Source: Rhodamnia argentea
Lineage: Eukaryota > Streptophyta > Magnoliopsida > Myrtales > Myrtaceae
Length of the DNA stretch: 64,000 nt
NCBI RefSeq assembly: GCF_020921035.1
Contig: NC_063151.1
Location: 6,014,001-6,078,000, forward strand
Direction of reading: 5' to 3'
Positions 4,165 through 63,187 of the stretch are shown one piece after another. How positions within the stretch are numbered: the first letter of the stretch is position 1; every line of letters begins with the position of its first letter. Made by a program: the position numbers and the translations under genes. Below the pieces are notes generated by a model. It saw only the letters and a program-made list of their open reading frames with translations, made no database searches and had not been told where the DNA came from.

Positions 4165-4821
4165 GGGAAAATTTGTCAAGAAAGTCATAAATCTTTTGCA
4201 CTTTTGTCAATTCAGTCTTAAACCTTTTAACTTTGTCGATTCAGCCCTAAATCATTTTACCAATTGCCAATTTACTTCTATTAACAAGAAATCACTAACA
4301 TGGATACCGGCGGTGTCACGTGGACAATTTGATATAATATTTTAACAATTTTTTGAGTTTCTTTATTTCTTATTTTATTTTATCTTTTTATCTTTTTTCT
4401 GTTTTCCTTTTTCTTTCTTTTTTTAGTTTCTTTTCTTTTCTTTTTCCCTCCGGCCATCACCCTCAACCTCGGCCGAGCATCGAGGGCCGTCTTCGTCCTC
4501 GTCAGGCAAGTGCCACCCTCGCCAAATCTAGTGAGGGCCACCCGCCTCACTAGATCAGGCTAGGGCCGCCCACGCCCGCAGAGGTTGATGGTGATGGTCG
4601 GAGGGGAAAAAGAAAAGGAAAAAAACGAAAAAAGGGAAAAGGAAAAGGAAAAAAAAAAGGGAAAATTTTCCAAAATATTATTAAAAATTAGTGATTTCTG
4701 ATCAATGGGACTAAATTGGCAAAAGGTGAAAATGTTTAAGACTGAATCGGCGTACTTAAAAGGTTTAGGACTGAATTGATAAAAATTGCAAAATGTTTAG
4801 GATTTTTTTGACAATTTTCCT
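4165..4821. mobile_element. Mutator-like foldback element, family A
   Basis: The ends are GGGAAAATTTGTCAA and, inverted, AGGAAAATTGTCAA. The flanks are GGGGAATTA (4156-4164) and AGGGAATTA (4822-4830), a 9-bp direct repeat with one mismatch, as expected for Mutator-type insertion. Each arm is a row of three or four ~30-nt units of the form GTCTTAAACCTTTTAACTTT. Inside come a pyrimidine tract (4360-4450), a GC core (4450-4615) whose own ends are inverted repeats (CCTCCGGCCATCACCCTCAA and its complement), and a purine tract (4615-4665). Nearly the whole 657 bp could fold into one hairpin. There is no transposase, so it is non-autonomous. Confidence 0.8.
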
Positions 4822-4830
4822 AGGGAATTA

Positions 4831-5490
4831 GGGTTTCACAAGTAAAAAAGGCAAATAATTAAGTATTCGAACAATTTGTGACTTTATAAGGTCATTAAGA
4901 TTTGGGGGTTGGTCAGAATCAATGCTTATGCGATGGATGGATGTATTGAATGAATTTGTTATGTATGGATGATAAGGATTCTATTGTTCAGGAGTCAACT
5001 CGAATAGACACATTATAAAGTCCGGTTCGGGTGCATTTGTTGGAGTCGGACCCACGAATTCCAATTATGAGTTGGGCTCTTATACGGGAAAAGAGTGACC
5101 TTTGGTTCCGAAAGGAACCTCGCCTTTAAAAAATTTTACGGCCAAAGCACCTCCTTAATTTTGTTTAATTCTTAGCCTATTGGTAGGTAGCTGTTCGCTT
5201 CTGAGGTTAAATCACGAGCTATTATCATTCTAAGACGTTGGATTTCTAGGTAACTTATTAACATTCACGGGGGTACAATGACGGCAAATCTCATGCAATT
5301 GACAACTTAAACGAGGGGACAAAATTGAGAAACAACTTTGAAAAGGTGAGCTATTTTGGGGATAAGAATTAAAAGATGAGGTTGAATTTGAAAATAGACC
5401 CAAAGTTATGCAACATGTGTTAGTGTATAAGAGCTAATTTGTCCCGCTGAATACCTTGAATGTTTGACCCCCCCCAAAAAAAAAAAATAT
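4831..5490. other. Intergenic, nothing recognised
   Basis: This AT-rich sequence lies between two foldback elements and shows no supported gene. Confidence 0.5.
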
Positions 5491-5499
5491 GCTTTGAAT

Positions 5500-6060
5500 A
5501 AAAGTTATATCCAATTCCTTTAAAAAAAAAATCAACTTTAACTCAAGTTCTAACTCTAACCCAATTTTTTTATCTCATAAAAAGGCACAAACTTTATCTC
5601 GGTCTTAGTTCTAGCCCAAACTTTTGTTTCTCTCATTAAAAAAAAAAACACTAATTTTAGATCCGTGTCCCAATTATAGTCCCGAGTTTTTTTTTCCCTT
5701 CTCATGAAAATGCACAAACTTTCAATTGGTATCCAAATCTGGTCCCTTTCGAGTTTTCGTCAAGTTTTCACTAAGCACGTGTGGAGTGACATGTCGAATG
5801 TTTAACAACATCATTGAACGAAAACTTTTGGGGGGCCATATTTGGGTACCGACTAAAAGTAGCTATTTTTTTTTATGAGACAACAAAAAGTGTGAGCCAT
5901 GGGTGGAATCCGACCTAATGGGATGAGAGAAAGCTTTGGTCATGATTGTGTCCCGATCTAAAGTTTGGTTTTTTTTATGAGACCAAAAAAGAAAAGGTTT
6001 GAGCCAAAATTAAGACCTGATCTAAAGTTGGTAAATCTTAGAGGTTTCGCGCCAAAACTT
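5500..6060. mobile_element. Foldback element, family B
   Basis: The left part repeats words such as TCTCATAAAAAGGCACAAAC and CCCAAACTTTTGTT. The right part carries them inverted (AAAGTTTGG, TTTTTTATGAGAC, GGTTTGAGCC). The centre lies near 5760-5825. Units are roughly 60-90 nt and less regular than in the other families. Exact ends and target duplication could not be fixed by eye. Confidence 0.5.
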
Positions 6061-6920
6061 TGATGAGATTTTGATGCTGACTAACGCGAAAAACCGAAAA
6101 CAAAATTACAGTTGAAGATACGTGAGCATGAATTGTCAGCTCTTAGGTCGAATCGGTCCGCCGTCCAAGGCTATTCTCAAGCTTTGCCGGGTCCAGGAGG
6201 CCAGAAGCTAGAGCCCATGGCTTGACAGGCCCATGATCTTCTCCTCTGTTTACAGTATCTTTGAAGCATTTTGCGGTTAAGTTGATTTAGTATCATAAAA
6301 AATTATGTGAATTACTCTTCCATATGTTAATTTTTATTTTGTGAATTGTGAAAATTATACTTAGAATAAGTGTGCTTGAAAAGTATGATCGGGAACAGTG
6401 ATTCGACTGATAATAAAGAAAGAGAGTTCTTGCATTTCAAACAGTTTATTATCATTTTATTTATAAAATACACAAATTTCAAATTTTTTTTTTTTTTGCA
6501 TTTCAAATTGTTTTTCGTTGATTGAATCGAATATGTAGTTAATTTTTTCTTGTTTAAATATTTCTTCATTTAGAGAGTCTAGTAAATTGGATTAATTTAT
6601 TTTCGAAAACGTCATAATTGAAATTAGATAAAATATATCATCTAAATGAAAAGTTCATATCGGTTTTTCATGTGGAAGAGTAGCTACTTTGTAAATCATT
6701 TAAGGATATATCCAAATTTACTTTAAACTCGTGACGACATCTCTTTGACCATTGTTTGAACATATCTAAAATTCATGATGACATATATTTGTTCATTAGA
6801 TAAGATGTTTTCAAATTGTGATGTGAAACATAAACTTCGTGGTGCAAAATAGCTTCTCCAATTCTATCCTTCACACTATCTACATATGCAAGAAAAACCG
6901 TTACTTGTCTCACTTTTGTA
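6061..6920. other. Intergenic, nothing recognised
   Basis: The sequence is AT-rich with poly-T runs. No gene-like frame is supported on either strand. Confidence 0.5.
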
Positions 6921-6929
6921 TTTCTCATT

Positions 6930-7740
6930 GAGATAATAACATTGTAAGTGCTATAACTTTTGTATGGCGTTCGCTTGAGCACTATAATTTTTTTTTTCCC
7001 TTCACTTGAGTGCCATATCATAGCAAAATCGTTTACTTGAGTGGTATTTCCGGCAAACAGTCTCACATGGACTTATTATTATTATTTTATTTATTTTGTA
7101 GTGACATGTGGCTTTTTTTAAAATGTTTTTAATATTTTATGGAATTTTTGTATTTTATTTTTTATTTATTTTGATAATTTTTTTTAATTATTTAATATTT
7201 TCTGAAAAAAAAAAAACTTGAATTTCCCATGGCTGGCTATCCCGGGGGCAAGGGTTGCGACAGCCGTCGCCACCCCCGACGGCCACGGGCTAAGGGTTCT
7301 TGAAGCCCCGCCGGCTAGGGCCGCCTCACCTATGGCCGGCGAGGTCGTAAGGGGCCTCACTCATATCTACAAGGGCTTTTGTGCCCTCGCTTGCGGCCGC
7401 CAAGGCCGCGACGACCGTCGCCTATGGCCGTCGCCGCTCCCTCGGGTGAAGGTGAGGTGGCCCTTTCCCCTAGGGCTAGATGGCCATGGTCGGTGAGGGC
7501 CCTCACTAGCCAAGAGGAGGGAAACGAAAAAAAAAAATCAAAATAACTAAAAGAATAAAATAAAATCCACGTTTATATTAAAAAATTCAAAAAAATTACT
7601 CCGACGATGCCACGTCATATTTTTGACACATAAGTGATCGTTTTTTCAAATTTGTGGCACTCAAGTGAGCAAAAAAAATATATTATGGCACTCAAGTGAA
7701 TGTTGTACATAAGTTATGGCACTCACAGTGTACTTATCCC
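6930..7740. mobile_element. Mutator-like foldback element, family C
   Basis: The flanks are TTTCTCATT (6921-6929) and TTTCTTATT (7741-7749), a 9-bp direct repeat with one mismatch. The arms carry the unit GTGCCATAACTTTT...CGTTCACTTGA: the left arm near 6944-7050, the right arm inverted near 7630-7725. The interior has an AT-rich tract, a GC core at 7220-7510 built of GCCGGCGAGG and CGTCGCC words, then a purine tract. An open frame across the core is an effect of GC content, not a gene. It belongs to the same family as the element at 62856-63187. Confidence 0.8.
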
Positions 7741-7777
7741 TTTCTTATTAGAGTCTTTATAAACATGCCTTTTCTAG

Positions 7778-8513
7778 GGGTGTGCAACCGAACCGGGTTT
7801 ATCCAGAACCCGGATCGGACCACCCGAAAAACAGGGTCGGAAAACAGTTCTCGCTCAAACCGGTCCGAGAGCCATTTCCAATTTTTGGGAACCGGTTGAA
7901 ACCGGTCCGGTTCTAGGTGAAGACTCACCTAGACCGATTTTAGAACCAATTTTAGCTATTGTTTAAAAAAAAAAAAACTATCTCACTTCTTTTGCTAACC
8001 TTGCTAACCTTGCAAGTTTCACAATGGGCTTCGAGTCTTTTTAACTTGCAAGACAAAAATGAGAGATTATTAGCGGATTTTGGTGATAGTGTGATAGGAA
8101 GAATTGTACTTATTAATTCAGTGTTTTATAGGATCATTATTGCTTTTTGTGGATTGTAATTTTTATTATTATATTTTGGATTGTTGCTTTTGATGGATTG
8201 TCATTTTTATTGCTCATATTAGGAATTGTTTCTTTTGATTGATAATGAGTTTTATTATTCACCTTTTACTTTGGATCATTTCATCGATACTCGGATTATT
8301 TTGATGAAAAAAAAACTGAAATCAGAAAAAGAAACGAAAGGAAAATAGGTTGTTGGGTAGACCGTGGAATTGGATCGAAATACAGGGTCGGTTCCAAAAT
8401 AGGCTCTAGGATAAACATGGTTAGTTCTCGGTTCCAAAAATTGAAAACCGGTTATAACATGGTCGATTTTAGGGTATAGGTCTAGATCCTACCCACCCGA
8501 TCCATGCTCATCC
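7778..8513. mobile_element. TIR element with AACCGG-rich subterminal ends
   Basis: The ends are GGGGTGTGCAACCG and, inverted, GGATGAGCATGGATCGG. CTA and TTA flank them. Both ends are loaded with AACCGG/GGTTCC words, while the middle is AT-rich. There is no transposase. It could be a PIF/Harbinger-like or hAT-like non-autonomous element; the target site does not decide. Confidence 0.5.
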
Positions 8514-9545
8514 TTAGTTGTTAAGCACATACGAGAAAAGGTAAAATTGACGCTAAAAAAATTGGCAAAAAGATAAAATAAGAAATTAACTGCACACTTT
8601 CTTTTAAAAAAGTGCACTTGATAATACTTATCCGTCCACTTTAAAAAGATCGTTTTGATTACCTTTGAGTGGGCTCCCATGAGAACAAGAAATTCCTCAA
8701 TAAACTAGGAAAGCCTTTACGATATGTTTTAGCTATTGTTTAAAATAAAAAAAACTATCTCGCTTCTTTTGCTAACCTTGCTAACCTTACAAGTTTCACA
8801 GTGGGCTTCGAGTCTTTTTAACTTGCAAGAGAAAAATGAGAGATTATTAGCGGATTTTTGTGATAGTGTGATAAGAAGAATTGCACTTATTTATTCAGTG
8901 TTTTGTAGGATCATTATTGCTTTTTGTGGATTGTAATTTTTATTATTGTATTTTGGATTGTTGTTTTTGATGGATTGTAATTTTTATTATTATATTTTGG
9001 ATTGTTGCTTTTGATAGATTGTCATTTTTATTGCTCATATCGGGAATTGTTGCTTTTGACTGATAATAAGTTTTATTATTCACCTTTTACTTTGGATCAT
9101 TTTATCGATACTCGGATTATTTTGATGAAAAAAAAATGAAATCGGAAAAAGAAACAAAAGGAAAATAGGTTCTCGGGTAGACCGTGGAACCGGATCGAAA
9201 AACAGAGTCTGTTCCAAAATAGCCTCTAGGATAAACATGGTTAGTTCTCGGATCCAAAAATTGAAAACCGGTTATAACGGGGTCTATTTTAGGGTTTAAG
9301 TCTAGACCCTACCCACCCGATTCATGCTCATCCTTAGTTGTTAAGCACATACGAGAAAAGGTAAAATTGACGCTAAAAAAATTGACAAAAAGATAAAATA
9401 AGAAATTAACTGCACACTTTCTATTAAAAAAGTGCACTTGATAATACTTATCCGTCCACTTTAAAAAGATCGTTTTGATTACCTCTAAGTGGGGTCCCAT
9501 GAGAACAAGAAATTCCTCAATAAATTAGGAAAGCTTTTACGATTT
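7949..9545 (+). repeat. Direct tandem duplication, two ~0.8-kb units
   Basis: Unit 1 (about 7949-8726) and unit 2 (about 8727-9545) are nearly identical throughout. They start at the TTTTAGCTATTGTTT motif and end at the AGGAAAGC-TTTACGAT motif. Unit 2 contains an extra internal ~42-bp repeat near 8945-9000. The unit covers the 3' two thirds of the AACCGG element plus ~213 bp of flank, so the duplication came after that insertion. Two matching short frames in the copies (66 aa, + strand) are simply duplicated and resemble nothing known. Confidence 0.85.
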
Positions 9546-9643
9546 GTGACCGGATAAATATTCGAATTTCAAAACGTTGGTACGTATCATCAAGGCTATC
9601 GTTGTATTGGAAATTGTTATATTCCTTCATTTAATTATATTAC

Positions 9644-10075
9644 GGATATGACATAAATGGTCCATAAATTTTGATTCAATATGCAATGTGATTCTTGAAC
9701 TTTTAATGTGATCAATATGATTCTTGAACTTTAGCTAAATGTACAATATGGTTCCTGAATTTGTAATTTGACCATGGTCCATAAACTTTTCAAACATGTT
9801 CAACTTAGTCTCTGAATTATAGGAAAACATTTAATGTAGTAATTTCATTAATTCAAGTTCATGGACGATAGTTTAGGGACTACATTGGATATTTTCTTAT
9901 AGTTCGGAGATTAGGTCGAACATATTCCAAATGTTCATAGATCACATTGAACAAATTGAAAGTTAAGGGATTATATTGCACATTGGACTAAAATTGACGA
10001 ATCATATTGCTCAAATTAAAAGTTTATGAATCACATTGCATATTAGACTAAAGTTTAGAGACAATTTGTGTCATT
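9644..10075. mobile_element. Foldback element, family D
   Basis: The left arm holds about five ~30-nt units of the type GATTCTTGAACTTTTAATGT...CAATAT. The right arm (from about 9840) repeats them inverted, ending AAGTTTAGAGACAATTTGTG. It has almost no GC core, so the arms nearly meet. No clear target duplication was found. It is the same family as 59865-60226. Confidence 0.65.
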
Positions 10076-11789
10076 TTTTCTATTGCTTTACAAGTGTCTC
10101 GATACCCAATATTTTTATATAACAAAAGCCGATTGCAAAAAACGTAATATTTTCTCTTGTGGGGGCGTCATCAGACTTAACTTTGAAGGAATATGTTATA
10201 TCATTATTCATTTGGGCCCGACTCCTGTGGCGAACCTTCCCACGAGAAAATCGACAAATGCTTTCGGTTCGTCCTTTTGCAGCCCCGAATCAAATTCCGC
10301 CCACTCCACGCTGAAAGGCGACGGTCAAAAACGCGGCGACGCCCACGTGGGGCAAGCCCATTCGTCATTCAAATCATTTTTTGCCGTGGGCTTGACCGCG
10401 CCTGATCCTTGCCCACATTGCTTAGGGAGGGAAATGAGAAATTTGGTTGGGCGCGTGAAAAGCTTGCGACGCTCCTCCCCGTACTGGGACCTTCATCCCC
10501 CTCGACGTCGTGTCAAGAAGTAACCGAATCATCGTCATCGAAACTTCGTGCGATTGATTCCGTTGAATCCCAATTACAGTTCTATTTCTATCTCTATGTC
10601 TCTCTCTCTCTCTAGCCCCGCCATTGATTACGAGTTGTGAAAGGCGGAAGCAAGGAAGCTGCATCCCTTTGTCCCGTCTCTCTGTTCTTCTCATTTTGTG
10701 TCAGAGAACCGCGTGAACTCGTGATTCGACGAGACGAGAGTGCTTTTCCAGACGGGGAATATAAGGATCGCTTCGCACTTCTCCAATATCGCTTCGCTCG
10801 CTTTTGGAATCTTGCCGGCGTTCGAATCGCTCTATCTCGACCTATCTGCCTTTGCCTTTTTCGTCTCGCTTTCAGGTAAAGCAACGCGCCTCTTCCACGC
10901 GACTTTAACGTACCTGATGACGCATTCGGTTGATCAAGCTGCTTCCTGTGGTTAAAAATTTGGAGAGAGCTAGGTCGAGCGATTTGATAGTTTCCAGCTT
11001 GTTTCGAGCTGTTGAATTTTATTTTTTTTCCCTCTTTGGCGGTTAAAATGCGGCGCGAGATGAAAGGGGAGTATCGGGACAGAGCTTCGCTTCCTTTGCC
11101 CAGTCGTCCGCGTGAATCACCGGCGGGATCACGTCGTGCTGGGAGTGACATTAGGAGTTCTGTGCGGAATTTCATCCGTAAGAGGTTGTCTGAATCTCCA
11201 AGCGCGTCCGTGTAAGCACGGATGGATGTCATGAGTCTGCATGTGTCTGCACTGTGCTATCGGTAGCCCGAGGTTACTCGAAATTCATTTCTGTCCCTGA
11301 CAAGTTCGCCAGATGTTGCCGTTGTTTTGTCTGGAAAACTTATAATCTGACTCTTTCCAGAGTCGTCCCATAGTTGACGCGCATTGATTGATGCTTCAGA
11401 AGAGAGTGCTTCGTTGCTCATTCGAGACACAGTTTTTTTCCTTATGCATGCTGCTAATATCATAATTCTCTTCATTCTGGGGACAATTGATTTCAGCGGA
11501 AAGATAAGCCAACTCATTGAGCAAATTGCACGTGATTCTTTTCCCAGAAAAAAAGAAGTTTTTTGAAATGAGATATTCATCGACTACCACGTAATTTGTT
11601 ATTTTGGTTTTGATTTCCAACATTATCCTCTTTTACTGCTTCTCTTTATTTCTTTCGGTTGATCCTTACCCCAGGGATGGAAGAGCCGTTTCCCATTCAG
11701 ATTTTCTTTATTAATGACAGAGTTCTATTTGATATCTTAGGTTAGTTATTCATTGTATGCAGTGTTTCTTATGAATTGCTCTTTTGCAG
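10076..11789 (+). promoter_or_regulatory. Upstream region and likely 5' UTR of the diacylglycerol kinase gene
   Basis: A (CT)n run lies at 10598-10616. A strong splice donor, TTCAG|GTAAAG (10875|10876), could join directly to the acceptor at 11789. A second possible leader exon starts at ATG 11048, ends at donor 11211|11212 and stays in frame with the kinase (54 extra residues, Arg/Ser-rich). No clear TATA box was found. Which leader is used cannot be settled from sequence. Confidence 0.5.
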
Positions 11790-11790
11790 C

Positions 11791-18250: not shown

Positions 18251-18259
18251 TATATAATA
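18251..18259 (+). promoter_or_regulatory. TATA box of the first DUF3774 gene
   Basis: TATATAATA lies about 100 bp before the start codon at 18360, a spacing that leaves a short leader. Confidence 0.55.
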
Positions 18260-18359
18260 AGTTTCGACATGATCCCAACCTCTATGCACCATAGAACTCA
18301 CTGAATACCGAGTACATTTTCTGTGATTTAAGCCCAAAACCAAGCAATATACTTCTAAA

Positions 18360-23010: not shown

Positions 23011-23195
23011 AGATTGTATCAGCGAGCCAATCACACTTCTTAATAGAAAATGATAATCTGTAATACATCGATATTATACTAATCATCGTAATTTATTTCA
23101 ATATCAACCAAATTGAGTTTTCCCGCGGTTGATTTTAATAATTACATATTCATGAATTAATTAGCTGTACAAATTGAAGGGGGACTAATTCCCTT

Positions 23196-24772
23196 GGAAA
23201 AGTATCAACTTTAGTTGGAATCTCGATTATGGCTCCCCGAACTTTTTTTATCTCGTAAAAATTACCAACTTTTGCTCCGTAACCAAATTTACTCTTGATT
23301 AACTTGTCATTTACTGACGTTGGTTAAGTACCGTGGATAATGACATGGCGTTAAGACATGAAGCTTCAAGCATGAGTTGAGTTTCATGTGGTGAGTGGGA
23401 TGTCCCTCTATATCTTCATTGTTGGTCGATTCGCCATCACCATTGTCATTTTGGTCGCGTGTCACCACATCACTCTTATTGTGGAACCTCGGTGCCTAGG
23501 GCATCACGGTCTCATTATCGAAACCTCGGCATCTAGCACAATTTTCGGGCAATCTCACTCGTTTGTTTTTGGCCAACCTTTATTTTTCGAAAGTCATGAC
23601 GAACCGCATAACCGTTTTCCTTTTTTTTTTATCAAATAATATGGCATTGATGAAATGAGCAACAAAAATTATAATACCCAAAGCAACAATCCAAAAATAA
23701 TAATAAATAATAGTATGATTCACCAAAAGCAACAAACCCTAATATAAAAATAAAATTTGAATCCACCAAAAGCACAATGATCCTCCGAGAATTAACATAG
23801 TGAAGTCTTTCATCACACTTCAATTTTGTTGTACCCATTAAAAAGAATTGAAATTATAGGATCCAAATAACATGCTAAAGACACCACATTAAGGTGCATA
23901 AACCAACCAAAAACTCAAACACCACGAGCATAAAACCAAAATCATAGTTATTTGGACACACATTGGGTTTCTTTTTTTTTTTAGTAACTAAAACCGGTTC
24001 TAAAACCGGTTCGGGTGGGTTCCACTAGAAGAACCGGACGTTTCAACCGTTCCAAAATTGGAAAAACGCCGGTTTGAGCAAGAACCGTTGTTCGGTGGCG
24101 TCTTACTGGGCCTACATCACTCTCATTATCGAACCTCAGCGTCTAGCACAATCTCGGGCAATCTCACTCTTTGGCCAACCTTTATTGAAAGTCATGACGA
24201 ACCGCATAACCTTCATTAATGAAGGTGCTCGAATTCAAATTTGGACCGCACGACCTCAAATGTGAGGCTACCCGCCTCAACAGTGGGTGGCAACCTCCAT
24301 TAACGGAGGTTTTGGCCTCGAATTTGAGGTCGTGACCTCAAATATGAGTTCAAGCTAGAAGGGGCTCGAAGGATGATTGTTGTGGGAGGCGGTGAGGTGG
24401 TGATGGAGGGAGGATCGGGACAACGGCGAGGTGGTGGTGGAAGGCGAGTGCCTAGGAAGAGTTGATCGTGGGGCTAAGTTGATGGCGGTCTGGATGTTGT
24501 CCAATATGGTCTGATTGTTGTCCGGAGGTGAAAGGAGGCAGAAGAAATGAAAAAGTCAAGAAAAGGAGGAAGAAGAAATAGAAAATGAATACATAATTCT
24601 GATTTCGAAAATAAAAACGACATGGCGTTGACACATGGCACTATTGGACAGAAAGATAAGGAAGATCAGACATGGGCATTGAGTGAAAGTTAAAAATTCT
24701 TTAGGAGACAAAAAAAAAAAAAATTAAGGTCAGTATTGAGGTTCCATGTAAAGTTGGTGTTTGTTTTTATGG
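23196..24772. mobile_element. Foldback element, family E, with internal insertion
   Basis: The left arm (23196-23330) has units such as AAGTATCAACTTTAGTTGGA and CCCCGAACTTTTTTTATCTC. The right end (24610-24772) has them inverted (AAAGTTGG, GAGGTTCC, TTAAAAATTCTTTAGGAGAC). Both sides carry GACATGGCGTT near the inner arm ends. A GC-rich core (about 24270-24450) and a purine tract (24510-24590) follow the shared plan. It looks older than families A and C, and no target duplication was recognised. Confidence 0.55.
23465..24215 (+). repeat. Direct repeats flanking an insertion inside element E
   Basis: About 110-150 bp containing GGCAATCTCACTC, GGCCAACCTTTATT and GTCATGACGAACCGCATAACC occurs at 23465-23615 and again at 24108-24215. 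The ~490 bp between holds AT-rich sequence and an AACCGGTTC-rich end near 23990-24060. The repeats are too long for a target duplication, so a partial internal duplication is more likely. Confidence 0.6.
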
Positions 24773-24883
24773 AATTAGGCCAATCAGAGAGAGAAGCACC
24801 CAACTGGGGGGGGGCAAAGGTTGGTTTGAGTTCGGCTCCCTCCGAGAAGAGCTCGGTTAAAAAAACCACCCGCGCGGCGGCTG

Positions 24884-33084: not shown

Positions 33085-33178
33085 GGCAATGAAAGAAAGG
33101 CTGATGAAAGGACTAAAATGGCACTATTGTAAAAGATTTAGGACTGAATTGCCACTATAGTCCGCTTTTTTCCCTAGC
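33085..33178. repeat. Solo arm of a family A foldback element
   Basis: Two ~30-nt units (AAAAGATTTAGGACTGAATT and a neighbour) end in TTTTTTCCCT, matching the right arm of the elements at 4165-4821 and 38091-38649. No partner arm was found. Confidence 0.55.
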
Positions 33179-38073: not shown

Positions 38074-38090
38074 TAGGTGTGTTATCAACC

Positions 38091-38649
38091 AGGGGAATTA
38101 TCAAAAAAGTCATAAATATATTGTAATTATGTCAATTTATCCGTATATCTTTTTTTCGCCAAGTAAGTCTAATACTTTTTGCATTTGTGTCAATTCAATC
38201 CATTCGTTCGATTTTTACTGGAAATCACTAGCATAGATACTAATAGTCCTACATGACGTGATCGGCATTGATGTTGACAACTTAATAATATTTTAAAGTT
38301 TTCGATCTATTCATGTATTTTTTTTTTTTTCTCTTCTTGGCGTGGTCCTAGAGGAGCAGGAGCTGGAGGAAGCAGGAAAGGAAGGGAAAAAAAGTAAAGG
38401 AAAAGAAAATAAAAAAAGGAAAAATAAAATAAATAAACAATACAAAAAAATGTTCAAATATTATTAAAAATGTGAGCATCGGTCGTGCCAAGTAGGACGT
38501 TCGACGGAGTCAGCGATTTCCGGCTAAAATTTGCTAAATTGACTGAATTGAGACAGATGTAAAAAGATTAAGATTCAATTGGCAAAAAAATTAAGGACTG
38601 AATTGACACAATTACAATAAATTTATGATTGTTTTTTGTAATTCTCCCT
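38091..38649. mobile_element. Mutator-like foldback element, family A
   Basis: A perfect 10-bp direct repeat, GTTATCAACC, flanks the element (38081-38090 and 38650-38659). The ends are AGGGGAATTATCAAAAAA and, inverted, AGGGAGAATTACAAAAAA. The arms are ~30-nt units of GTCAATTTA...CTAATACTTTTTGCA type. The interior has a T tract, a reduced core (38335-38385) and a purine tract (38385-38450). It inserted directly next to the tandem repeat at 37611-38073. Confidence 0.8.
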
Positions 38650-38819
38650 GTTATCAACCCGATTAATGACCGAACCTAAGTTAACCTACTCAATTTAAAT
38701 TAGCCTTATTCCCTTTCATTATTTACTACTAATGACCATAATTTAAGTGTTACATGAACACAAATAGTTGTTGTACTGTAACAAGTTCACAATTTTGCTT
38801 CTTCTTTTTTCATTGTTCA

Positions 38820-41515: not shown

Positions 41516-43230
41516 TTGACCCCTTTGCAAGTCAGTCATCCACATCTCTCGCCCTCCTTCCTTTCCTGTCGTTGATTTGTTTCTGCTAAAAAGAGTTGAA
41601 GCCTCGATCCCTCGACCTACTTCTCAATTTTATTTTTATTTTTTTAAATCTTTTGCCATTGTCTGATTGGGGTGTGAATTGGAAGACTTTACAGTGAAGT
41701 GAGAGCTTATCAGCAAAAGGGCACGATTGGGATCCAATAAAGATTGTATTTTTTGAGGAAAGATAACGTTCTTTACGGTTGAGAAGAAGGAGATCGTGGG
41801 GGATACGGTGGTGGAGGAAGGCGAGTATGGTAAAGAGGAAATGGGGTTCAAAATCTGGGATTTGGATAGCATAATATTGGAATTTCTGTTAAATACTTAC
41901 CATTACTCAAATCAGGTCTTCCAAATGAAAATGGGCGGCCAAGAATGGGCCACATCATTTGTTGAGGGAGAGGGAAAAAATTTGGGTGGAAATTTTTTTG
42001 GGGTTTGAAAAATTTTGAATCCCAACCCTCTCTCAAATCCGGCCGTCCATTTTCATTTGGCCGCCTAATTTGAGTAATGATAAATATGTCACGAAAACCT
42101 TAATGTTAGGCGATTCGGATCCCAAAATCCGTGCTTTGGCCGATTCCCAAGTAGAATCGGACGAGAACCGACGGGTTGAGAGTCATAGGTTCGGTTCCCA
42201 ATTTTGGATCGAGAACATACCCACCCGAGAACCGATCAATCCGTTGAGATATACGTCACTTTCAAATTTTCAATAATGTCCTCGGAACAAACTTTCGTTG
42301 AATGAGAATGCTAAGGTGCAAAAGGAAAAAAATTGTCAAGACTCTAACGCCTACTTAAATTATTTTTGCCTCGGTACCTCAAATGCTATGGGAACATGTA
42401 GTATATTTTGGTTACATGATTGATATGGCATGACCAATCAATTAGACTATACACGTGGTATGCATCCTAGCTGGCACTCCAACATCCAACATAGACAGTT
42501 ATGTTGGGTTTGGTTATTCAAACACGGTTGACATATGATAGGATAAGGTAGGATTAGAAATCCTTTGGATTATGAAAAATATCTTGATCTATTTGTTAAA
42601 TGTCTAGATATAACTTGAATATCTAGACGTGCTATCCAGTATCCACCTTGCCGGTGGCCTCCTACAAACACAATGGTGATAATAGCCGCGACCATCACGC
42701 CAAGCTGGGACATAGCGGTGGCATCCGCCTAAATCTAGAATGGTGACCACCAATGGGGTGATCACTCACTAAACCACGGCGGCTGTGCTCATTGAAGGAC
42801 GACAAAAGGCGACTAATGCTGATCAACGCAAGCAACAATAAGGATCAAATGACATTCAATTCCTTAGGCTTCTCATTTAGGATTAAGTACTGAGATGAAA
42901 CTCCGAGTCTACCTTCTTTTCTACATAATTGCAATGAGCACATCCTTTTCATCTTGCCTTCCTCCTGGATATTCATTTTTGAGCTTTTAACTCTCTTTTT
43001 TCCCATTGCATGTTATCTGATGCCATAACGTGACGCATTCTGTTGTAAATCCATTTGGAAAGAGTAATGGCCCCTTAAACTTCACCGGAGATAAAGAAAC
43101 TTTCTCACTGTTACCAAACAGTTCCGAAAGAAAGAAGAACCAAAGATCGGAGGAAAATAACACAACATTACAAGAAAAAATACCCAAATTCTTCCCGATC
43201 AGTGCTTAACCATAGCACCAATAAACCTAT
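41516..43230. other. Intergenic with repeat remnants
   Basis: It contains an AACCG/GGTTC-type remnant at 42100-42260. A small inverted repeat TCCAAATGAAAATGGGCGGCC lies near 41930, with its partial complement near 42045. No gene is supported. Confidence 0.45.
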
Positions 43231-54389: not shown

Positions 54390-55727
54390 ATGGCTTCCAT
54401 GGGAACAGCGGCAGCCACCACCGTCCTCAGACCCTCTCCATTCCTTGGCCAGTCCAGATCATCCTCCAATGCTCTCAGAGATGTTGTCTCCATGGGCCCG
54501 GCCGGCAAGTACACCATGGTACTACCACTAGCGTCCCTTCTCGCTCAGGCTCACTTGCCCATGAATCTGTCTTTGATTTTGTTTTGGTGGGTTCATTGGC
54601 TGATGTGGCATTTTGCCGAATGTCGTTACTGGGTCTTGTCTCTCACTCTCGTTTGACGAATAGGGAAACGAGCTGTGGTATGGGCCGGACAGAGTGAAGT
54701 ACTTGGGACCATTCTCTGCTCAGACTCCTCCCTACCTCACCGGCGAATTCCCCGGCGATTATGGCTGGGACACCGCTGGTTTGTCCGCTGATCCCGAGGC
54801 TTTTGCCCGAAACAGGGCTCTCGAGGTAAAAAAAAAACAAATCATCAAACTCTTTGATCTTCTTTAAAGAGAGAGAGGGAGACCACTAGGGACACGTTAA
54901 TGGAGCCACAGTTGCGCTTTCAATTCGTGCTGCTTTGTGTGAGATCTAGTGTTCTTGTTTTGAAAAATGCATAGGTCGTGAGTTCGAGTCCTAGTAGTTT
55001 TGACTCTTCTTTTTGGGGGAAAACACTACTTATTTAGCAGTTCTTGTAAGCTTTGTCACGCGGTCGAAAGGATCTAGTCTCTGTCTTTCATTGATTTCAA
55101 GATATGGTATTCCTGTTCAGCTTCATATTTGCGTCAAGAAAGCTTTGAATTTCCATTGAGAAATAGATCAGTCCTCCTGAGACATTGGTTTGGATGATGT
55201 TGAACCAAAAAAATCAGGTCATCCATGGGCGTTGGGCCATGCTTGGAGCCCTGGGCTGCATCACCCCCGAGGTCCTAGAGAAATGGCTCCGGGTCGACTT
55301 CAAGGAGCCGGTCTGGTTCAAGGCCGGGGCCCAGATCTTCTCCGAGGGAGGCCTCGACTATCTGGGCAACCCTAACCTCGTCCACGCCCAGAGCATCCTC
55401 GCCGTCCTCGGCTGCCAAGTCGTCTTGATGGGCCTTGTCGAGGGCTTCAGAATCAACGGGCTCCCCGGCGTCGGAGAGGGCAACGACCTCTACCCCGGCG
55501 GCCAGTACTTCGACCCGCTGGGCCTCGCCGACGACCCGGTCACGTTCGCCGAGCTCAAGGTGAAGGAGATCAAGAATGGGAGGTTGGCCATGTTCTCGAT
55601 GTTCGGGTTCTTCGTTCAGGCCATCGTGACCGGAAAGGGCCCCCTTGAGAACCTGTTGGACCACCTAGACAACCCTGTGGCCAACAATGCTTGGGTCTAC
55701 GCCACCAAATTTGTGCCCGGGTCATGA
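54390..55727 (+). CDS. LHCB3: Chlorophyll a/b-binding protein LHCB3 (LHCII type III)
   Basis: There are three exons, 54390-54518, 54664-54825 and 55218-55727, giving 266 aa. An N-terminal Ser/Ala/Thr-rich chloroplast transit peptide (about 1-38) is followed by [20 protein letters not shown]. This start lacks the phosphorylatable Thr segment of LHCB1/2, which marks type III. Helix B has [13 protein letters not shown] (chlorophyll-binding E and H/R). The mid-helix [19 protein letters not shown] and helix [21 protein letters not shown] follow, and the end is [11 protein letters not shown]. The three-exon layout also fits LHCB3. The protein sits in thylakoid LHCII trimers and feeds photosystem II. 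All recognised ligand motifs are intact. Confidence 0.96.
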
Positions 55728-56792
55728 ATTGATGGGTCTGAATTGGTCTTAATGTGTATGATTGGAGAGGAAGTGTAAATTTGTGATGGTTCATAATCAA
55801 GAGCTTTTAATTTATGTGCACCATTGTTCCATGTTATGGATCCATTGTAGTTTTGTGATTTTGATGATCTTCCTTGGTGATCTGTAACAGAAACAATTCA
55901 TAACTTTTACTATGAGGACGATGCCAGGTTGACGTGGAAAAGCTAGAATTATAATCACGAGTCGTCCTAGAATCGGTTCTCCATTTTGTCATCAAGAAAA
56001 AGATCATGCGACCTTAGTTTTATCACGGTGACATCATGAACAAATAAACTTTTCGATGGAATGACAATGTTTGAAGTCTCTTTTTGTTATACTTTATATG
56101 TGTCACATAAAGTAGATGAAATAACTACTCGTGCTTCGTATTTTAGCATTGTTGTCGACATCATCTTATGTTCGATTTCACGCCATCATTTAATGTTCGA
56201 TTTCCCGATTGTTTGATGCCATAGTTATCAAGTGCCTCATGAATCTGAAGATGGAAAGAATGATCTTTAATGTACATTAAAAAAACATTGAAAATTCGAA
56301 ATATATTCTCTTTTTAGCATGTTATAAACAAAACACGCGAGTTTCAAAGCATAATCGATATAAAAAAAAATTGGGAAATCTCATGGATTGACGCTTTATT
56401 AAAATGCAATTATACTTTGATTGGTAGTAATTATTTCCGTAGTAATTATTTACACAGACATTGCTAGTCTCCATTTGTGTAAAATGTTTCATGATCGAAG
56501 GACTTAAGCCGATTGTTCAGGCTTGTATATGGTCCGTATCTTTGAAATTGAAAATAAGCCGAAAGGAAGAAAGAGATGTAATTATAATTAGGTCTGGCCG
56601 ACTTATATGTTTCGAAAGCCCAAATTAATTTGTCGAGGCCCAGGACCAGGCCCAATCTCGACCACCGTCTGTACCGTACCCGCCAAAAGTGTGACAGTCG
56701 AAGTGGCCTTTCGATGCTCTTCTGCCATTGCTAGGGTTTTTGGTTTTGTGCTCCGTCGTCTGCATTCTCTGTCTCTCTCGTTCGCCTCAGCT
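55728..56792. other. Intergenic, LHCB3 3' UTR to next promoter
   Basis: It is AT-rich with no gene or clear repeat. The last ~150 bp is leader of the following gene, and an open frame runs upstream of its ATG by chance. Confidence 0.45.
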
Positions 56793-58153: not shown

Positions 58154-58443
58154 CTTGGCTCAATCATTGGTCCACACTCTTTTTTGATGAAGAGGGAGTA
58201 GAATCATCATAGGAGTTTCAGTTTCTTAGTTCTAGCATTTGCATTTTACATATGAATTATTCTTACTTCCAGATAAGATGGAAGGTGTAATTATCAGCTA
58301 TCTTCATCTTTATTTGGTGATAGCTTTTGGACTGAAATGTTCGTGTATGGCCTATATAAAGCTTGGAAGATTTTGATTGTACCAAGTGGCAGATTATGAA
58401 TGTTCTGTAAATATTTCTCGTGGAATGAAAGAAACTACACCCT

Positions 58444-58448
<5 letters not shown>

Positions 58449-58502
<54 letters not shown>
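58449..58502. repeat. (TA)n microsatellite
   Basis: An uninterrupted TA run of about 27 units is followed by a short G run, ~300 bp past the stop codon of the 99-aa gene. Confidence 0.9.
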
Positions 58503-58505
<3 letters not shown>

Positions 58506-58678
58506 GGGGGGACCTTTTTTGTAATATCCATCGATATAAAAAAAGATTTCAGCATAAATGTTAAGTATTTATCACGTTGAAAAAAAATTTGGCACTTACA
58601 AAATCTGAAAATGAAAGAGAAAATTGAAATTCAAAAGTGAGCCAAAGAAAAGTCAACTGATGAAATGAATGCACATGA

Positions 58679-59172
58679 GGAAAATTTCAAATAAAGACAT
58701 AAAGTGTCTTTATTTTTTTAAATAAGGACATGAAGTGGATTGTATTTTACATAAAGCCTTAAAGCGTCCTCTTTGTTTCAAAGATGGACTTGATCGAAGG
58801 GAATTTTTTTGATTTGATTTTTTGAATTTTTTTCTTTTTCTTTTACCTCTCCCTTCCAGGGCCATTACTAGCGTCAAGTGAGGGGCTCAAGGCCACCCTC
58901 GCTTGGCCGGGCGAGGCCGGGCATTAGGTGAGGCATTGGACAAGGGCCGCCCTCGCTCACCCAAGCGACGGCTTTCGCCCGATCATGGCGATGGGCGGGG
59001 GAGGGGAGAGGGAAAAGTAAAAGAAAAATCGAAAAAAAAATAATGCCCTTCATCCAGGCTTTTTTTTTTTTAAATAATGAGGGCACATCAGATTCTTATT
59101 TGAAATAAGATCCACTTCAGACCTTTATTTGAGAAAATGATGGCATTTTAAGTTTTTATTTGGAATTTTTCC
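58679..59172. mobile_element. Foldback element, family G
   Basis: The ends are GGAAAATTTCAAATAAAGAC and, inverted, GGAAAAATTCCAAATAAAAA. The left arm units (29-31 nt) carry AAATAAGGACATGAAGTGG; the right arm carries the inverted form. A pyrimidine tract (58805-58855), a GC core (58860-59010, GGCCGGGCGAGGCC words) and a purine tract (59010-59040) follow the common plan. No convincing target duplication was found. Confidence 0.7.
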
Positions 59173-59864
59173 TTCATTGTGATTGAGAAGTGGTAATAAA
59201 AGTCTATATGGGCTTTATTGTAAGAGACATAAGATTTTCCGTTCTTGGCCATCCTTAAATATTAAATCTCCAAATTGACTCGATGTCATTGTTCACTTAT
59301 GTTTTGAGATCCGGACCGAATCGGCCAATTTGATTGTGAACCTGAGCATGGTCCGGTCCGGCGTTGACCCACGCAACATTTTTTACTAGTCCATTGCCCT
59401 TTAAAAAAAAAAGTTGACTTTGCATCAACAAGGACTCGAATCTCTATTTGCCAATTTACAAAGTTAAGTAATTGATAATAAAAGTGTGACACCAGTTCAC
59501 CTGTGGAACGTTTCGGGTTCAATCGATGGAAACTTTTCGACTCGTGAACCGCAAGGCTTATCGGTTCGTTGTCTAGGCATGGTTCAAAAGCCATTCCCAT
59601 GCATGTCCATACATGTCCATTTCGTTTTGCACATAAGCAATTACAATAGCTCTGTCCGGGGGAAAAAAAAAGGAACAACTAATAGCTAACCAGTCATAAA
59701 AGGACATGACGAAGTGCTGACGTGGCAATAATTATTGTCGAGCGATCGAGAAGTTATTGCATGAATCAGCTCGGTTGACTCAAAAGACGACATGTGGGGT
59801 CTACAAGATCCGACGGATGACATGTACTGAGTTTATGTGATTCGGTTAACATTAATAGTTTCGA
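59173..59864. other. Intergenic, nothing recognised
   Basis: A short GGTCCGG/GACCGAATCGG stretch near 59310-59365 hints at another AACCGG-type remnant. No gene is supported. Confidence 0.4.
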
Positions 59865-60226
59865 GGAAAATAACATATATGATCTTTAAATTTTAGTTCA
59901 ATGTGCAATATGATTAATGAATTTTAAATTTATTCAAAAAAGTCTTTAAATGTTAGTCCAATATGCAATATCATCCCAAAATTTTTTATTTGTTCAATGC
60001 GATCCCCGAACTTTTTGCACATGTTCAATTGACCCAGGACTACATGAAAATATTCAATCTTGTCCTTAACCTTGAATTAATAGATATATGACATTAGACA
60101 TTTTCATATAATTTAAGAACTAGATTGATTATTTACTAAAAGTTCAAGAATCACATTTAATAAATTAATAATCCAAAAATGATATTGCGAATTGGGACAA
60201 AATTTAAGCATTATTGCGTAATTACC
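59865..60226. mobile_element. Foldback element, family D
   Basis: The arms carry CTTTAAATTTTAG(T)TCAATGTGCAATAT-like units on the left and their inverted forms on the right (GATATTGCGAATTGGGAC). The centre lies near 60050 and there is no GC core. It has the same unit as 9644-10075 but is more decayed. It lies about 450 bp upstream of the zinc-finger gene start. Confidence 0.6.
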
Positions 60227-60680
60227 CCTGATTTTCCCATCCACCGTCACTCATGCACCTTGTCACCCTACATGGTTTTTCATTTTCCAAAAATTCAGGA
60301 CGCCGATAGAACGCGGCGCTCCACGTCAGAAGCTCGGAGAACCGCCGGCCCTCCGATCAATCTCACGGCTAGGGATGGAGTCCGGATCACCCTTTCTTCT
60401 CATCGAGCGGCCCACGAGCGCCTCGTGTTCGAAACAGGCCGTGCGAGCGACTTACACGTGACATTTCCTCCTCTCCGTATCTTCTTCCTTGTCCGTTAAT
60501 AAGACCTTGGGACGCAGACGCGCATGATTAGCAAACAGACAAAAGCTACCGGTTCGTCTTCTCTGCTCGCAAATGCGATTTCGCTCTCTGCTTGATCGAA
60601 CTCTCTCTCCAGTTCTCGAGCCACAAAAAAGTACAAGGAAATCGCATCTGTGACTGTGATTCCCTTGGGCTTCGACGTCA

Positions 60681-60814
60681 ATGGCGTACCATCCAGTTTG
60701 TTTCTCCGGCGACGAGGAGAGCACCTGCTTCTACTGCAAGCGCGGAACGGCTCAGCTCAGGCCGGGCTGGCGGCTCAGCAACGGCGGCTACGCACAGCTC
60801 TGCGACGAATGCGC
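60681..60814 (+). CDS. First exon of a zinc-finger protein (VAL-like N-terminal finger)
   Basis: ATG 60681 opens 44 codons up to donor GCGC|GTAAGA (60814|60815), leaving phase 2. The peptide has paired cysteines TCFYC and LCDEC, with the core GWRLSNGGYAQLCDECA between and after. This resembles the N-terminal finger of plant VAL/HSI2 B3-domain repressors, which reads roughly C..C...GW.LRSG.FA.LCD.CG. Downstream exons (B3, CW domains) were not found before the window end, so the family cannot be confirmed and the first intron would exceed 3.1 kb. It might instead be a different small zinc-ribbon protein. Confidence 0.6.
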
Positions 60815-62855
60815 GTAAGATCATTCTGCGATTCAGTCGCTTTTCCTCGAATGCACGTGGTTCTTTGCCAATCCGTCTCGTTTCGGGAATGCCTCTCCGC
60901 GTGCGTGCCATTTGTTTGTCAAGCGCGTGTGTATGGTAATTGAAGGCTTGGAAGCTATGCTTGGTTAGACAATCGGCTGGTTGTGATCTATTTGGTGATG
61001 GATGGATGGATGTTTGCGTTATTGCTTGCGGTACAAGCTTCTGGAATGATGACTGCATCTCTTAATACTTGTAGTCAGCACTTGTATTAGTTAGCTTCGC
61101 AGTATTAGGGAACATGTGAGCTTATTGCTTCTTATCTTGTTAGACCAGTGTGGGTTCGACTTTTTGGGAGTTAGATAGGATTTATGTGTTCAAAGCAAGC
61201 GTAGCCAAACATCTTCTTTAGACGTGAGTCGAGTGTGATGCCAACATTGGATTAACTATCCCCCTGTTCGATATGAATTGTTGGATTCTGTACCATCTAC
61301 AGATATATAATCCAGCAACTAATAATGCTGGAGTCATAGGTTCTGAAAAAGACGGAGCTGAAGATTTCCATTGTTTCCTGGAACTCATTATAAGCGAACT
61401 AAGTTAAGATGTTATCAATCGTTAACAGGAGATTGTTGACAAGAATAAGGCCCTTTCCTGTAGTGCAATTTGATCTAGCAAGCAACAGGGTGGCATTTCA
61501 GGTGCAGTTGAGAATCAAATAGGAGAAACAGAACCTGAACAATTGTTCCACAAGTGAGAGCCACCAAGATCAAGAAAAACAATACAGTAACACAAATCAT
61601 ATCCTCAAATTCTAGAGAGATTGTTTTCCTCATCTGTATGCCGTCATTTTAGTGGTCGGGTATAGAATATTTGCAAGTAGAATTCCTTGAATCTAGATTC
61701 ATTTTTATAAAGTGTGAAATACCGCTTTCATGTTGCAAGATAAGAGATTGTCACATCAACAGTTAGTGGGAGCATTTTGGCTTTGTGAATTGAAATAGAA
61801 ACCAGCATAGCGATGTCAATGATATAGTCAGAATCTCATAAAAGTTTAAATGATAAACACAGTTCATTGAGTCTCAAATAAGAAAGTCATTGACTGTGTT
61901 TCAGAGATTTTCTATTGCTATTCAAGTTTTTCATTTTTCTCTTAGTTTTTTCTGATGTACTTTGCTGGCATCAAAGTAGTGTTTATTGCTCAGAAAAACT
62001 GCCAATATATTGGCCATTCCTGTTATATTTCAGTGGATTTTTCAGTGTGATTTATTGTTAGATATCATCCTGGAAGGACCATAATTATATTCTGCAGAAT
62101 AATTGGCAAGAAGCAGGGGCTGGTTTTCCAGTGTCATGCTTGCATGGGTGTATTGCTTTACTAAAATGAGTCTGTCTCGGTTTTGTTGCTGGAAGTTTGT
62201 TTTACTCGCACCCATGGGCATCTTGCTCTGTAGCGTGACGTAGCTAGGTGGGCTGTCTGCCAATCAAGGCCTGCTGTAAATCTCAGCCATACAGATTTCT
62301 GTCTTTTTTTTACGAACCAAGAGCTTGCTTTCCAAAAGTATATTGCCTTTCAAAGGATCATTTGTTTTAAAATTTTATGAAGCTGAAATAAGGAGGAGCA
62401 TTTCCAGAAGAGATGCCATTCAAGCAGAGCAAGAATACTTCGTTCTTTCTGGTTATACTTCCGCCCATCCAGAGCTTAGTTCCTTAAACAATTTACAAGT
62501 GCTGTGACATGTTTAATGCACAATGTATATATAACTCCAGTATGTGTAGTAAGTACTTTCTTTATTGCTGATTTATTTCTTGATTAAGCAATTTTCCATT
62601 TTCCATGCCAATTTTACTTTTTGTTGATTGTCTTCTCTTCAAGTCATGCAAGACAGATCTGATCGTCTGCTGAGCAGTACAATTTCACTAATAAAAGGTG
62701 TAAGGAAATAAATGCCCTTATCTCTTGTTTAAAAAAGACCATACAAGTTATAGATAAATTGGTAAAAGTACCAGGTTTCTATGTGTAAGTTATAACAAGA
62801 GGGAGAGTATTGTGCTCATTTGGTAGACAAATTCTCGTGTGTTCAACCGGAGGAG
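60815..62855 (+). other. Probable first intron of the zinc-finger gene
   Basis: No exon of a recognised domain, RNA gene or repeat was seen. Several polypyrimidine-AG sites exist, but none leads into a conserved reading frame. Confidence 0.4.
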
Positions 62856-63187
62856 GGGAAAAGTACACTAGAAGTGCCATAACTTGTGTACGGCGTTCAC
62901 TTGAGTGCCATAACTTTCAAAACGTTCACTTAAGTGCCATAACTTTCAAAAATCGTTCACTTGAGTGCTACGTCGGAGCAAAATCGTTCACTTGAGTGCT
63001 ACAGTAACTTTTCCAGCGTGCCACGTCATCTTTCCGGCTGCCACGTCAGCTTTTCCGGCCGCCACGTCAGCATGACACTCAAGTGAACGATTTTTGAAAG
63101 TTATGGTACTTAAGTGAACGTTTTGAAAGTTATGACACTCAAGTGAACGCCGTACAAAAGTTATGGCACTTCTAGTATACTTTTCCC
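62856..63187. mobile_element. Mutator-like foldback element, family C, young-looking
   Basis: The inverted ends, GGGAAAAGTA(C/T)ACTAGAAGTG, match at 19 of 20 positions. The flanks are ACCGGAGGAG (62846-62855) and ACCGAGGAG (63188-63196), a target duplication differing by one base gain or loss. The left arm is four ~30-nt units GTGCCATAACTTTCAAAA...CGTTCACTTGA; the right arm is three inverted units. The centre is only ~70 bp, with three GCCACGTCA words. The high arm identity suggests recent activity or conversion. It has the same family unit as 6930-7740. Confidence 0.85.

Follow-up and report, generated by a model that had tools for sequence, protein, structure and literature searches.

The question raised by this locus is whether foldback elements assigned to separate families share one arm architecture. 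In a 64,000-nt stretch of the 346.7-Mb Rhodamnia argentea genome (the window), the initial annotation had named eight elements, all with arms made of tandem units of 29–31 nt. Seven of the eight were foldbacks with such arms. Inverted arms were present at 4165, 6930, 9644, 38091, 58679, 59865 and 62856, and the terminal inverted repeats (TIRs) of these seven elements measured 84–133 nt, as in Mutator-like elements (MULEs) with long TIRs. Their long inverted arms, built from internal tandem repeats, place them in the foldback-like class, which is a structural class and not a descent group. The remaining element, at 23196, does not belong to the group: its arms were only a weak match (score 45, compared with 26–29.5 in five shuffles) lying 1.4 kb apart (23182–23305 and 24653–24781), no consistent tandem units were found, and the profile search described below gave no match there.

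The left arms of the seven elements are on the plus strand and the right arms on the minus strand. In the A element, the left arm (4165–4298) consists of an end block followed by units from 4184 (31 nt), 4215 (29 nt) and 4244 (31 nt); the right arm (4688–4820) has 17 nt from the end to the first unit and then units of 32, 29 and 31 nt, and the direct repeat GGGAATTAG lies close to each end. The G element (38090–38204, units of 31, 27 and 31 nt; 38537–38650, units of 31, 24 and 31 nt) is related to A and is flanked on both sides by the perfect 9-bp repeat TTATCAACC. The D element has units from 9660 (31 nt), 9691 (29 nt) and 9720 (31 nt), with another unit after these, in its left arm (9643–9840), and its right arm (9879–10077) was identified both as an inverted arm and by a profile match. 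The F element, of D type and with sequence in common with D, has units of 31, 30 and 31 nt in the left arm (59863–60029) and a degenerate right arm (60124–60214). The E element has units from 58696 (31 nt), 58727 (29 nt) and 58756 (31 nt) in the left arm (58677–58787), and its right arm lies at 59068–59169; the right arms of E and F were both detected by inverted-repeat match, the profile search giving no match at either. The two C elements, at 6930 and 62856, have an identical unit core by eye. C1 has units of 31, 31 and 31 nt on the left (6932–7043) and two measured units of 31 nt on the right (7627–7740). In C2, an 18-nt end block precedes units from 62874 (31 nt), 62905 (29 nt) and 62934 (31 nt) on the left (62856–62967), and the 112-nt right arm (63076–63187), complementary to the left arm at 96%, repeats the order 18, then 31, 29 and 31. 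Thus the elements are not eight independent families, given the ties between A and G, between D and F, and between the two C elements. The proposed succession of pyrimidine tract, GC core and purine tract was found in A, the 6930 element and E and was poor in the window G element (highest central GC, 0.45). An Rfam scan of the whole window returned nothing at gathering scores.

A profile was made from the family consensus strings plus one copy of a further family, H, and is therefore not independent of these families; it gave 14 matches in the window at E≤0.05, of which 13 fell inside the seven elements, and it recovered at least one arm in each. A solitary A-like arm fragment on the minus strand at 33109–33162 (profile E 0.0022; a single 31-nt step by eye) was absent from the list of annotated elements. 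Using anchors picked by eye, we measured 11 of the 14 window arms, and 3 were dropped. The distance from the element end to the first unit was 16–19 nt (exactly 18 in 3/11). Unit 1 was 31 nt in 10/11 arms and 32 nt in the other, and unit 3 was 31 nt in all 10 arms in which it was measurable. Unit 2 was 29 nt in 6/11 arms (31, 31, 30, 27 and 24 nt in the rest), and the departures seen in the F, C1 and G arms fell at this unit.

The same order emerged when family consensus arms were segmented freely. A succession of 31, 29 and 31 nt was a top solution in A, C, D and E (tied with 31, 29, 24 in D, and obtained in E from a consensus carrying one extra end-block base), G gave 31, 28, 31, and start positions were 14–20 across families. 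Self-similarity of the units reached 45–54 of 54, far higher than the maximum of 37 in 25 dinucleotide shuffles per family. The family consensus end block is about 18 nt long and begins GGGAWAA. In copies aligned to their family consensus (families summed; 127 arms, of which 6 were unmeasurable and left out), the end block was 18 nt in 106/121 arms, unit 1 was 31 nt in 113/121, unit 2 was 29 nt in 108/121 and unit 3 was 31 nt in 108/121. The complete 18/31/29/31 pattern was present in just 9/32 A, 3/8 E and 1/6 G arms.

Genome-wide core-to-core spacing was bimodal in A, D and E. It was 29 or 31 nt in 89/100 cases among the matches listed for A (100 of 266 places, on contigs C1–C4), in 10/10 for D and in 33/40 for E (all places in both), and 30 nt in 3/100 among those listed for A, 0/10 for D and 0/40 for E. 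A freely varying period, named at the outset as a refuting outcome, was looked for and not found: most spacings were 29 or 31 nt, and few were 30. Among the matches listed, 16/22 adjacent step pairs alternated as 29/31 or 31/29, and 29/29 occurred in 0/22. H arrays showed a repeat of 59–60 nt in five places, as obtained by subtraction of tabulated positions. Four further inverted repeats lay outside the query elements in loci L001–L090; by eye, L016 has the plan, L008 and L019 have steps of about 30 nt, and L010 is unrelated. These results show that the families share one arm plan, namely a terminal block some 18 nt long, after which unit cores follow at distances of 31, 29 and 31 nt, which replaces the loose unit length of 29–31 nt given originally. 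At 10.5 bp per turn, 30 nt corresponds to about 2.9 helical turns, so that the three or so suggested per unit are not exact. We did not find this plan described in the literature searched, and a search with six unit sequence strings retrieved no paper.

Unit cores agreed across families at 0.516, compared with 0.257±0.031 under permutation of positions within each family, and none of 500 permutations reached the observed value (largest, 0.372). The idea of a common module thus withstood the tests set for its refutation, with the shared module being the 31/29/31 plan rather than a single ~30-nt unit. In ungapped, end-anchored comparison of A, G, C, D and H (H represented by one copy), the best match fell at offset 0 or 1 in 10/10 pairs; with E included, it fell at offset 0 in 9/15 and within 1 in 12/15. 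When one family at a time was left out and only units were scored, held-out A, C and H were beaten by 0 of 190,348 background positions, and D and G (with one gap put in) by 1; held-out D scored 11.9 at another shift of itself compared with 10.5 in register. Odd and even unit cores within a family had a mean likeness of 0.86, compared with 0.51–0.52 between families. Unit cores are thus shown to be related across families, much alike within a family and different between families. Unit tails of odd units resembled each other more than they resembled those of even units in A, G and D and slightly so in E; in D, the tails of units 2 and 4 were identical and those of units 1 and 3 alike. In C, the tail was independent of parity, and the fourth unit had a different core.

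The likeness across families exceeds chance and is weakest for E, whose units were beaten by 1,824 of the 190,348 background positions in the leave-one-family-out test. In end-anchored comparison with the corrected register, E matched clearly only A, and matches with C, D and H at offset 0 were absent. With one extra E end-block base, the C–E and D–E values were 0.42 and 0.41; they dropped to 0.26 and 0.31 on its removal, so that the E comparison hangs on a single base. What places E in the group is mainly its spacing and end block, and less its unit sequence.

Target site duplications (TSDs) of about 9 bp, within the 8–11 bp of MULEs, scored with both ends projected and boundary slip allowed, matched at 8 or 9 of 9 positions in 13/18 A, 27/29 C and 7/8 D elements, compared with at most 0.8% of mispaired ends given the same slip. 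This projected-end set yielded 0/2 in E and 0/1 in G. It had lost the loci with no second projected end (12/30 A, 1/30 C, 3/12 D, 4/6 E and 5/6 G) and one further D locus for missing flank, and the A and C sets include the window's own copies (L001 and L061). The Mutator-like origin that the initial annotation drew from target duplications is accordingly supported for A, C and D.

The genome gave 150 scored matches to the MULE transposase domain PF10551. No transposase enclosed by such arms, and hence no autonomous partner with the same ends as had been suggested, was seen in 30 MULE loci with 1.5-kb flanks, which is a weak test, and none of the best 12–40 arm places per family was seen to enclose a MULE transposase. 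Comparison of the arms with the 30 loci gave 34 alignments, the best five of which (17–46 nt) were in L038 (twice), L052, L055 and L058. L038 was rejected as a partner, the match there belonging to a distinct element (H) that lies alongside and has an end block of its own; an H arm beside a MULE on contig C8 had no near-identical right arm among 40 scored places. L047, a profile match, was also rejected because the end of its array, by eye, faces away from the transposase. Among the arm places, an A copy lay 5.8 kb from a MULE match but has its own target duplication and was rejected as part of the MULE; a G copy lay 11.7 kb from one.

The best explanation is that the elements are non-autonomous MULE foldbacks of several related families. 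On balance, we consider it probable that these families inherited their arm plan and that the units form a putative transposase-binding array. All families would go back to a single ancestral arm of this layout, in which the unit core is a putative binding site of the element's transposase and the end block a putative cleavage site. In maize, MURA binds a TIR motif of about 32 bp (PMC3310237), the THAP domain of Galileo has several binding sites in tandem TIR repeats (PMC3688188), and the motif arrays of VANDALs co-evolve with their cognate protein (PMC5735166). Alternating steps of 31 and 29 nt (60 nt per pair) may be read by a multimer recognizing two kinds of step. If a transposase lineage shifted its recognition, every unit would have to follow, so that cores would diverge in concert while the spacing stayed. 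Because the plan looks inherited and most units change their core jointly from one family to another, multiplication of one module in step, as had been proposed, is not the best account. A more specific version, which we put forward tentatively, is an old, family-spanning ruler of plant MULE ends, in which cleavage would take place at an 18-bp block and the transposase would bind cores at +19, +50, +79 and +110; the multimer would read the 31/29 steps, so that the spacing would stay fixed even as the recognition sequence changed jointly at every site.

The spacing may instead be functionless, if the ancestral arm already had 31/29/31 and its units are kept homogeneous by slippage or conversion acting on 60-nt dimers. 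Conservation among copies is compatible with such neutral inheritance, cores and middles being almost equally conserved within families: a test for greater core conservation was negative (A, 0.843 in the core and 0.824 in the middle; D, 0.832 and 0.830), and it was the end block that stood above both (A, 0.918; D, 0.889). Indel cells favoured the cores in A (9 in core, 26 in middle) and did not in D (4 and 1). The pairing of D tails is also what dimer duplication predicts. Such duplication would, however, separate odd from even units, yet their cores are alike within a family and differ between families, and the rarity of 30-nt spacings speaks against neutral inheritance as well. We regard it as unlikely, though worth serious consideration.

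An array recruiting an element-encoded demethylating protein instead of the transposase, as in VANDALs, would share with VANC motifs the same-orientation tandem arrangement, variation between related elements and joint divergence (PMC5735166). However, VANDALs are described in PMC6446971 as having no TIRs or short degenerate ones, and in the families measured the arrays studied here begin at nearly equal distances from the element end and are present in both arms; an anti-silencing role is improbable. Arms serving folding and siRNA production, with unit spacing as a by-product, would account for complementarity of up to 96% and a short loop, but folding itself would require neither tandem units, a cap nor a 31/29/31 order across families, and we consider this quite improbable. 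Chance overlay of AT-rich sequence was a concern because the arms are AT-rich and the original overlay was done by eye. It is contradicted by the shuffles, the permutation, the leave-one-out scoring, the spacing and the end-anchored comparison, and is refuted for A, G, C, D and H; the unit sequence of E alone could be due to chance, but its spacing could not. As a general account, chance is hardly credible.

The maize Mu end starts GAGATAATTGCC, with a MURA site at a similar distance from the end, and Drosophila FB arms have a 31-bp unit. Maize Mu/MuDR resembles the present elements in its long TIRs, TSD size and a binding motif about one unit long (PMC3310237); one motif is named in that account, whereas here three or more occur at 31/29/31 across several families. 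Plant MULEs with tandem or multiple TIRs, such as tomato PM-ZIBP, also repeat motifs inside their TIRs, but in the cases described entire TIRs are duplicated and not units of about 30 nt within a TIR (PMC3310237). MuTAnT of Medicago, which targets TA microsatellites, and FARE of Arabidopsis share modular TIRs and foldback form, but no unit spacing plan was found in the relevant passages of PMC4486113. Tm1, a Mutator/Foldback group of root-knot nematodes in which some members carry a MULE (Phantom-like) transposase, has foldback TIRs of short tandem repeats and a 9-bp TSD; its unit is 13–15 bp and variable in number, and the relevant passages of PMC3169594 gave no fixed spacing across families. 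With units spaced 29/31 nt, the present elements do not fit the 13–15-bp arm motif of Tm1/Phantom. Galileo/Foldback of Drosophila likewise has long TIRs with internal repeats and several THAP sites for its transposase, but that transposase is of the P superfamily, and the sites lie about 70, 561–577 and 701–718 bp from the end and do not follow 30-nt steps (PMC3688188). In Arabidopsis VANDALs, tandem protein-bound motifs diverge together between related elements (PMC5735166), but as described there they are targets of an anti-silencing protein in non-coding element parts, and TIRs are absent or degenerate; the long TIRs found here speak against VANDAL membership.

The reason for the wide variation in MULE TIR length is not clear (PMC6446971), and tandem repeats in Foldback/Phantom arms had not been tested as binding sites as of 2013 (PMC3688188). 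The present plan may bear on the great length of MULE ends and on how a transposase tells its own elements from many relatives. A spacing rule that outlives sequence allows a direct test, because spacing and sequence can be separated, and it provides a sequence-independent signature with which foldback MULEs can be found and grouped. If the ruler reading were true, these arms would show a protein and its array of sites visibly evolving together.

The initial annotation listed eight foldback elements in the window, G000:C2:6014001-6078000. When each was locally aligned with its own reverse complement, clear inverted arms were found at seven of them, namely those of family A (4165), C (6930 and 62856), D (9644), G (38091), E (58679) and F (59865). 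The eighth, at 23196, had only a weak arm pair, 1.4 kb apart, and was excluded from the arm-plan analyses. Two weak foldbacks (5587-6032 and 23182-24781) had ATCTCRTAAAAA-like pieces in common and are perhaps one more family without the arm plan. An inverted repeat at 41856-42124, with arms of 85 nt, ends TGGGATTTGGA and no tandem units by eye, is a different element type. The open reading frames at 118-816 and 55185-55727 presumably represent the tail of a copia-type retrotransposon and a light-harvesting chlorophyll-binding protein, respectively.

The genome (346.7 Mb, 74 contigs) was searched with the window arms as queries, which gave 1745 (A), 2071 (C), 951 (D), 2174 (G) and 548 (E) first-look candidates, the A and G sets possibly overlapping in these related families; the best 40 per query were scored. 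A 20-mer of the C unit occurred 813 times genome-wide and its backward control 0 times. Sequences were retrieved for 30 loci each of A and C, with the window's own copy counted in both sets, and for smaller numbers of D (12), E (6) and G (6); the family alignments (51 A, 59 C, 21 D, 6 G and 8 E arms) yielded consensus arms.

Free segmentation of the consensus arms, with unit lengths of 24-36 and starts of 8-29, gave scores of 45-54 of 54, compared with a highest value of 37 among 25 shuffles per family, so that the proposed unit period held against shuffled arms. The top segmentation included (31,29,31) for A, C, D and E, tied in D with (31,29,24), and (31,28,31) for G; the start was resolved only within a few bases (14-20). 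Placed side by side, the families showed an end block of 18 nt followed by steps of 31, 29 (28 in G) and 31. In single copies aligned to the consensus, the exact 18/31/29/31 pattern was present in 55/57 C, 15/18 D, 9/32 A, 3/8 E and 1/6 G arms, and single steps held more often than the full pattern (unit 2 was 29 nt in 30 of 32 A arms, for example). The C copies were 98-100% identical across the best 40 scored places, and the agreement among them therefore has the weight of a single case. Within the window, arms were measured from anchors placed by eye (11 of 14), and the distance from the end to the first unit was 16-19 nt.

Spacing was also counted without alignment, by a genome-wide pattern search for two identical cores (the first part of the unit) with a free gap between them. 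For A (first 100 of 266 places), the spacing was 29 in 49, 31 in 40, 30 in 3 and another value in 8; for D (all 10 places), 29 in 4 and 31 in 6; and for E (all 40 places), 29 in 14, 31 in 19, another value in 7 and 30 in none. Thinning to one place per 3 kb left the same picture, with 29 or 31 in 61/70 A, 8/8 D and 32/38 E places, and the backward controls gave 4 matches for E and 0 for A and D. These counts peak at 29 and 31; thus, the 29-31 nt reported initially really represents two discrete values, with 30 being rare. Among 22 pairs of neighbouring steps, 16 alternated (29/31 or 31/29), 3 were 31/31, none was 29/29, and 31/32, 31/28 and 44/45 occurred once each.

The alternation was also visible inside the units. 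Agreement over the first 12 nt had means of 0.81-0.86 within families (lower in G, and with a deviating fourth C unit) and 0.51-0.52 between families, about half identical irrespective of unit place. Over the remainder of the unit, pairs of the same parity agreed better than pairs of different parity (0.81 in 7 pairs against 0.70 in 14 pairs). Families A, G and D showed this effect clearly, E only slightly and C not at all. In family H, five listed arrays had a repeat of 59-60 nt, as obtained by subtraction of the listed positions. Because of the parity effect and these H arrays, the repeating entity is mostly a pair of units (31 + 29 = 60 nt).

Family H was found while searching loci with MULE transposases (L038:3209-3282, G000:C8:760891 onward; 599 first-look genome candidates), and has a C-like end block, a 31-nt first unit and A/D-like units. 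Steps of about 30 nt were also seen in a tandem array at L047:90-215 (30 nt), whose cores GTCCCTGAA run by eye opposite to a GGAAAAATACACCAAGAA-like end and which is perhaps an element with inverted units, and by eye in an inverted-repeat family at L008:401-813 and L019:726-1110 (TCCTAAAC ... CCCAAAAC).

To examine kinship of the units, 15 family pairs were compared base by base without gaps, counting from the element end, at 57-81 offsets. Agreement peaked at offset 0 for 9 pairs and no more than one position away from it for 12. Under a null that applied the same permutation to every unit and so kept the tandem structure, the observed agreement was reached in 0 of 1000 permutations for A-G, A-C, A-D, A-E and C-D, and in 2-14 for A-H, G-C, G-D, G-E, C-H and D-H, although the best offset for G-E was 32. 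Agreement was not significant for G-H (186 per 1000), C-E (438), D-E (260) and E-H (326); that of E was sensitive to one end-block base (C-E 0.26 and D-E 0.31, or 0.42 and 0.41 with an extra base). Families were also held out one at a time (leave-one-family-out test, scored on the units), with G dropped from training when A was held out and vice versa. No background position of 190,348 scored higher than held-out A, C or H (H being a single copy of 74 nt), and one did for G (one gap inserted) and for D, which scored slightly better in its own shifted register (11.9) than in register (10.5). For E units, 1,824 positions scored higher, and one for the E end block alone. The end-anchored agreement and the leave-one-family-out results lead us to conclude that what appears to be one module is common by descent to A, G, C, D and H, and that F, by its sequence, belongs with D. 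The common module of the initial annotation is thereby retained for these families; E has the plan in common with them, and perhaps the descent.

The Mutator-like origin proposed earlier was supported by target duplications in A, C and D. With 9-bp flanks and a slip of up to 3 nt per side, the flanks matched at 8 or 9 positions in 13/18 A, 27/29 C and 7/8 D elements, against 0.8%, 0.1% and 0.0% of mispaired flanks with the same slip; with strict ends, the best duplications were 9 or 10 bp in 14 C elements. These duplications, together with the long arms, fit Mutator-like elements. At six C-family insertions (L070, L079, L081, L087, L088 and L089), the inverted repeat continues for about 13-40 nt beyond the element on either side, as would be seen after insertion at a palindrome centre. 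Elements with both ends located measured 310-1204 bp, which is too short to hold a MULE transposase gene. Such transposases are common in the genome (150 scored matches), but the autonomous partner anticipated earlier was not seen: no transposase lay between plan-bearing arms in a search that was weak because it covered only 30 MULE loci with 1.5 kb on either side and the best 12-40 arm places. Opposite-strand pairs of MULE-domain reading frames, 4.9 kb apart in each case, were observed at G000:C8:759186/764106 and C11:22527425/22532369, and these may be FAR1-type host genes that have been duplicated.

In the open-licence PubMed Central papers searched, foldback MULEs whose TIRs contain repeated motifs are on record, the repeats there being either units of another length or duplicated whole TIRs. 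A spacing plan that spans several families was not found described in these papers; curators of repeat libraries may already know of it. MURA of maize Mu is described as binding a TIR motif of about 32 bp (PMC3310237), and Galileo, also a foldback element but with a different transposase, as having more binding sites within tandem TIR repeats (PMC3688188). By analogy, the simplest mechanism would be that the arm is an array of transposase-binding sites, in which the end block is a putative cleavage site, the cores are putative binding sites and the alternating steps may serve a transposase multimer. Against this, conservation of the cores within families was not clearly above that of the unit middles, and indels tended to spare the cores in A, with no such tendency in D. 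For VANC, joint change of the protein and its motif arrays has been proposed (PMC5735166). The concerted difference in cores between the Rhodamnia argentea families would likewise be expected where a transposase changes in step with its full set of sites.
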